DNA of 40,094 nucleotides from a virus: positions 1 through 40,094 of the IMG/VR virus record IMGVR_UViG_3300044971_004948, one strand, 5' to 3'. The notes below the pieces were generated by a model. The model ran no database searches. It was not told the DNA's origin and saw only the letters and a program-made list of their open reading frames with translations. The stretch's first letter is position 1, and the number at the start of each line of letters is the position of its first letter. Shown piece by piece: positions 37,120 to 37,361 of this stretch. Position numbers and translations under genes: made by a program.

Positions 37120-37361
37120 TTAGGCAAACCGTTAGGCAAGCCCACCCAAGACCCCAGGCGGGGCTTACGGCCCACTCGGTTTCCTAAACCGTAGGTCGTG
37201 GGTTCGAGTCCCGCCAGCCCCGTGCCTCAAAAGCCCAGTTTCAGCAAGGCTTTTCAGGGGACCAGGGGCCGAAAAAGTCGCTCCCGCGAGGCACTGTCGT
37301 TAGGCAAAAAACTAGGCAAATCGGCCCGGATCGACCACGATTAGGCAAATGGTTAGGCAAA
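37120..37361 (+). repeat. six integrase arm-type direct repeats (YTAGGCAAR) in three pairs
   Basis: Copies start at 37120, 37132, 37300, 37312, 37341 and 37353. Each reads TTAGGCAA or CTAGGCAA followed by A or G. They form three pairs with an exact 12-bp period. One pair lies left of the tRNA-derived core and two pairs lie right of it, just before the integrase start. Paired short direct repeats flanking a core are the usual arm-type binding sites of tyrosine integrases. Confidence 0.8.
37176..37222 (+). other. attachment-site core: 3' half of tRNA-Arg(CCT)
   Basis: Anticodon stem TCGGT/ACCGT with loop TTCCTAA (anticodon CCT at 37183-37185), variable loop, T-arm GTGGG-TTCGAGT-CCCGC, then CAGCCCC and discriminator G at 37222. 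The D-arm and a matching 5' acceptor strand are absent (only 9 bases separate a GGGGCTT from the anticodon stem), so this is not a functional tRNA. It is the identity block left by integration into a tRNA-Arg gene, which should be intact elsewhere. Confidence 0.75.

Follow-up and report, generated by a model that had tools for sequence, protein, structure and literature searches.

Paired integrase arm repeats around a tRNA-Arg(CCT) core in a virus record: a probable attP site of a phage-like element of freshwater picocyanobacteria

In an integrated element the two sets of integrase arm sites are located at opposite ends. How, then, can both sets lie within 250 bp of each other, on the two sides of a single tRNA fragment? 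This arrangement is found at positions 37120–37361 of the DNA studied here, the complete IMG/VR virus record IMGVR_UViG_3300044971_004948 (40,094 bp, in the following the window). An earlier note, made from the sequence, had considered a junction of two tandem elements, a circular or episomal form and a rearranged site. We conclude that 37120–37361 represents the attP of a phage-like, temperate element from freshwater picocyanobacteria and that the element was sequenced in a circular or permuted, non-integrated form; we give this reading a probability of roughly 0.86. The site itself is an ordinary and very well supported attP, and the surprise it holds is a mild one.

Arm sites, core and integrase

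The sequence YTAGGCAAR is present at positions 37120, 37132, 37300, 37312, 37341 and 37353, always on the plus strand, and no further copies were found elsewhere in the 40-kb window. The six copies form three pairs, each with a period of 12 bp. Shuffling of the window gave an expectation of 0.72 copies per 40 kb; six copies were reached in 0 of 100 shuffles, and the pair pattern TAGGCAA-N(2–6)-TAGGCAA likewise appeared in 0 of 100. In a Markov simulation (n = 1000) the plus strand carried 0.28 copies on average and 3 at most, and a 12-bp pair was absent from all 1000 simulated windows.

One pair (37120–37140, plus strand) constitutes the P arm, with its copies at −103/−91 relative to the 3′ end of the tRNA sequence. 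The P′ arm consists of a first pair at 37300–37320 (+77/+89) and a second pair at 37341–37361 (+118/+130), both on the plus strand. The core between the arms, 37177–37222 on the plus strand, comprises only a tRNA-Arg(CCT) 3′ half that extends from the anticodon stem up to the discriminator base; these 46 bp are fully identical to the corresponding part of tRNA-Arg(CCT) in cyanobacterial genomes. At the core the 5′ half is lacking, and ARAGORN reported 0 tRNAs in the whole window. Repeat positions, pairing, period and the identity of the tRNA half had been given correctly to the base in the earlier note. Two adjacent proteins beside the P arm (35677–36483 and 36560–37063) have C-terminal ends that look alike by eye; neither gave a family match.

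To the right of the arms, where the earlier note had placed it, lies an intact tyrosine integrase of 379 aa (37366–38505, plus strand; PHROG integrase match). Its start codon follows the end of the last P′ site by 5 bp. A promoter and terminator scan of 36900–37600 returned nothing, and the consensus scan gave no sigma-70-type promoter. The catalytic set R247, K269, Y323xxR326, H350 and Y359 is kept across 32 aligned relatives, with H350 nearly invariant. In the structure predicted for the integrase (mean pLDDT 86, pTM 0.59), a three-stranded sheet between two helices comes first, and the core-binding and catalytic domains come after it. Full-length lambda Int structures are among its best matches (E 8e-5; 13–14% sequence identity). 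The TM-scores against lambda Int are modest, which could result from hinged domains in the model. The locus is thus adjoined by an integrase with catalytic residues and an arm-binding domain, the latter assigned by predicted fold only, and core, arms and integrase together fit the description as attP-like. A search of the integrase against an annotated phage collection yielded no match; among viral contigs the closest relative is a single one, 99% identical, on a contig of 44,629 bp (G001).

A small conserved protein near the integrase, of which the window end cuts off all but the C-terminal part (39877–40094, minus strand), is a candidate directionality factor. It adjoins the integrase in L131, L132, G207 and G107, and a full ORF of 94 aa is present at L003:12512–12796; a family match was not found. 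In the window a trypsin-like protease gene (38507–40018) is located between the integrase and this small gene, which in other elements directly follows the integrase.

Free form or chromosomal junction

No end repeat was found in the window itself. G001, however, carries an exact direct terminal repeat of 127 bp and is related to the window along most of its length: with both contigs in the same orientation, G001 1–15615 matches window 25073–40094 and G001 18203–44629 matches window 1–25199, with some gaps. The map order in G001 is window end, 2.6 kb, window start, and the window in turn crosses the ends of G001. Because the matching segments are circularly permuted, both records represent one map cut at different points. 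Both window ends cut genes that are whole in G001; at the end this is the small conserved protein described above, and at the start a DUF3987 primase/helicase-like gene, whose C-terminal part occupies 2–730 on the plus strand and whose N-terminal part sits in the additional 2.6 kb of G001. The same single P-core-P′ site is present in G001, whose circle contains just one integrase and one core; in the window every gene occurs once. A genome that is circular or circularly permuted would look like this. Identical copies in a chromosomal tandem would assemble in the same way, but this explanation is less economical. A chromosomal location was set aside, as the window is a whole virus record and offers no host contig to search.

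Among the three options of the earlier note, the circular or episomal form is therefore favored by the virus record, the permuted relative and the 127-bp repeat. The placement of the junction inside a chromosome finds no support in a virus record with a circularly permuted relative, and the second integrase expected for a left-hand element beyond the window is not supported by a G001 circle of one integrase and one core or by window genes that each occur once.

The tandem option loses ground on this evidence, yet tandem relics do occur in the family. If two chromosomal elements were joined head to tail, the P arm would come from the left one, while the P′ arms and the integrase would belong to the right one. 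Such P-core-P′-integrase junctions are indeed found in cell assemblies (G131:C7 and G003:C81), and G107:C158 resembles a mixed tandem, so that tandem junctions are biologically real in this element family. But in G131:C7 and G003:C81 the right-hand integrase is decayed, or broken near the contig end in an apparent insertion sequence, and in G107:C158 P′ and the integrase come after a different arm word, GTGCCCAAAAC, present twice. In L302 a word of this type lies behind an intact tRNA-Arg(CCT), an indication of a further element at this tRNA. The window, by contrast, has an intact integrase, a single word in both arms and each gene once, and G001 closes as a circle with one core. Neither different elements nor a second core and integrase are found on the two sides of the site in the window or in the G001 circle, and we consider a tandem origin unlikely.

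Both arms could also lie together in a dead element whose site is rearranged or a relic, and relic versions are known, namely G131:C7 and L306, a 50-kb viral contig with P arm, core and a degraded integrase start. Since all six arm sites, their spacing and the catalytic residues are intact in the window and G001 has conserved this site, we regard such an origin as very improbable.

Integrated copies and the empty site

If 37120–37361 is an attP, integrated relatives should carry its two halves apart, as the earlier note had stated for singly integrated elements. Searching genomes for relatives of the integrase yielded three close cases, all in freshwater isolates: Microcystis elabens FACHB-917 and Synechococcus CS-1325 at tRNA-Arg CCT, and Cyanobium ATX 6A2 at tRNA-Ser TGA. 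In each, the order is intact tRNA, P′ arms, integrase, with no P arm. A scan with the exact pair pattern covered 400 genomes of the family, of which 20 contained matches. Host arms lie at −103/−91 and +77/+89/+118/+130 from the tRNA 3′ end, within 1 bp. Nine host sites are attL sites with an intact tRNA and P′ arms only, the P′ offsets recurring within 1 bp and a pair being lost or degraded in some; ten are attR sites with a tRNA 3′ fragment and only the P arm, at the recurrent −103/−91. The arms that flank the core in the free form are thus split between attL and attR once integrated. A single contig of G207 contains both element ends; 62 kb separate them, and TerL, portal and capsid homologues lie in between.

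The closest host sequence is the attR of G140, which is 97% identical to window 36834–37223 over 390 bp, with an identical P arm. The attL of G140 is on another contig, and attL and attR overlap by 48 bp. For an empty-site test the G140 flanks were joined across the core and searched against the genus of G140. G022 matched the joined flanks in one unbroken alignment (560 bp, 88%); judged by sequence, this site of the same genus is an empty attB. In G002 this tRNA gene is present as well, and no element occupies the site. The left flank is presumably the terminal part of the RNase P RNA gene. The core is therefore common to the host attB. The earlier note had named, as evidence against its reading, the finding of this arrangement in genomes that lack an element; the empty site does not show it and consists of just an ordinary tRNA gene.

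The split products also bear on the possibility that the repeats are repressor or operator repeats near the integrase by chance. The P′ pairs lie directly before the integrase, a possible place for an operator. The P pair, however, is located across the core from the integrase and, in integrated elements, is found at the opposite end at a fixed distance; in relatives of the window integrase, different paired words occupy the stretch from tRNA to integrase. An operator function in place of integrase binding is hardly credible on these grounds.

In distant relatives these other paired words have a period of 11–12 bp; examples are TTTAGTCA next to tRNA-Cys and ATTTAGGGAAG next to tRNA-His. The YTAGGCAAR layout is found around a different tRNA 3′ end in L055, an 82-kb viral contig. 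Because L055 keeps the arm word at a different tRNA and distant relatives use other words, arm recognition seems, from these sequences, to change slowly and the tRNA target faster. The bare TAGGCAA pair pattern gave many unrelated matches in viral contigs, some of which (L054, L065 and L073) look like coding repeats. An unrelated viral contig carries TTAGGCAAAAAGTTAGGCAA pairs 198 bp apart (L015:6576–6792), which may be an independent integrase arm set. Two other cyanobacterial genomes, L152 and L176, have two paired-word sets around apparent tRNA 3′ fragments upstream of the integrase and look like further attP-like junctions in assemblies. Plasmid-borne relatives of the integrase occur in Microcystis and Picosynechococcus; upstream of the Microcystis one, such arm pairs were not found.

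The attP reading is supported at the sequence level by the sequence and spacing of the sites, the circular permutation, the attL, attR and attB products in hosts and the predicted integrase fold. Arm binding and strand exchange at the window site are what we infer from it. The small N-terminal domain of Int would bind the six arm sites while the other two domains bind the tRNA-derived core, with P and P′ folded together as by lambda Int. Recombination of attP with the tRNA-Arg(CCT) gene of the host would restore a full tRNA, leaving the P′ arms and the integrase beside it in attL and carrying the P arm and the 3′ fragment to the far end in attR. Only 5 bp separate the last P′ site from the integrase start, so that Int binding probably limits its own synthesis, by analogy with KplE1 intS. 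In attL the tRNA promoter may read into the integrase, as was shown for ICEKp1 (PMC13023037).

The element and its relation to known systems

The window encodes, all on the minus strand, a major capsid protein (19945–20859), a head scaffolding protein (22775–23635), a portal protein (26986–28257) and a terminase large subunit (29027–30667). Gene content of the element family was read from window 17253–31218, L003:12512–16046 and G207:C1:1595320–1657815, and includes capsid, scaffold, portal, terminase, sigma factor and primase genes, with an endolysin in G207. A tape measure or tail tube protein was not found using S-CBS2 proteins and PHROGs, many ORFs being without assignment; one ORF (17253–17846) is tail-fibre-like. 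The family is possibly a capsid-encoding satellite of the cf-PICI-like kind. A four-gene defence-like operon (PLD-helicase, DUF1156 methyltransferase, DUF3780 and DUF499 ATPase; PADLOC) is located at 7485–17048, and Mrr-type PDC-S02 and PDC-M18A are candidate defence proteins at 6428–7483 and 20894–22021.

Our search of openly accessible literature found no description of the YTAGGCAAR arm word or of these elements. We tentatively propose, at somewhat less than even odds, an undescribed group of large, capsid-encoding, tail-less satellites of freshwater picocyanobacteria with multi-gene defence cargo, whose integrases keep the 12-bp YTAGGCAAR pairs and switch tRNA targets (Arg-CCT, Ser-TGA, Pro-GGG and others). 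Lysogeny has been described as rare in freshwater picocyanobacteria (PMC6157547), and attP, attL, attR and attB are now fixed for one element family in these bacteria. With the exact arm spacing rule, sequence alone can distinguish copies that are free, integrated or in tandem. Together with attP and the tRNA-Arg(CCT) attB, the intact integrase is a candidate integration tool for these organisms.

Among the closest known systems is the cyanophage P-SS2 (PMC2784084), which likewise infects cyanobacteria, encodes an integrase and has a tRNA-like attP (a putative 53-bp att site). The capsid protein and TerL of the window have those of P-SS2 among their nearest annotated relatives. The differences are that P-SS2 has tail genes and that the window integrase lacks a match in the phage collection. 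KplE1 shares with the window a tRNA-Arg target (argW), an integrase gene (intS) beside the tRNA in attL and P′ sites at the integrase promoter region (PMC2951348). Negative autoregulation was demonstrated for intS (PMC2951348), whereas in the window, where the consensus scan gave no sigma-70-type promoter, it is suggested by analogy only. Like the window site, lambda attP has a core between P and P′ arm sites beside the integrase gene, and lambda integrase has three domains with an N-terminal arm-binding domain, to which the predicted fold of the window integrase is similar. The window differs from lambda attP in that its core is a tRNA 3′ half and its arms are 12-bp pairs, one on the left and two on the right.
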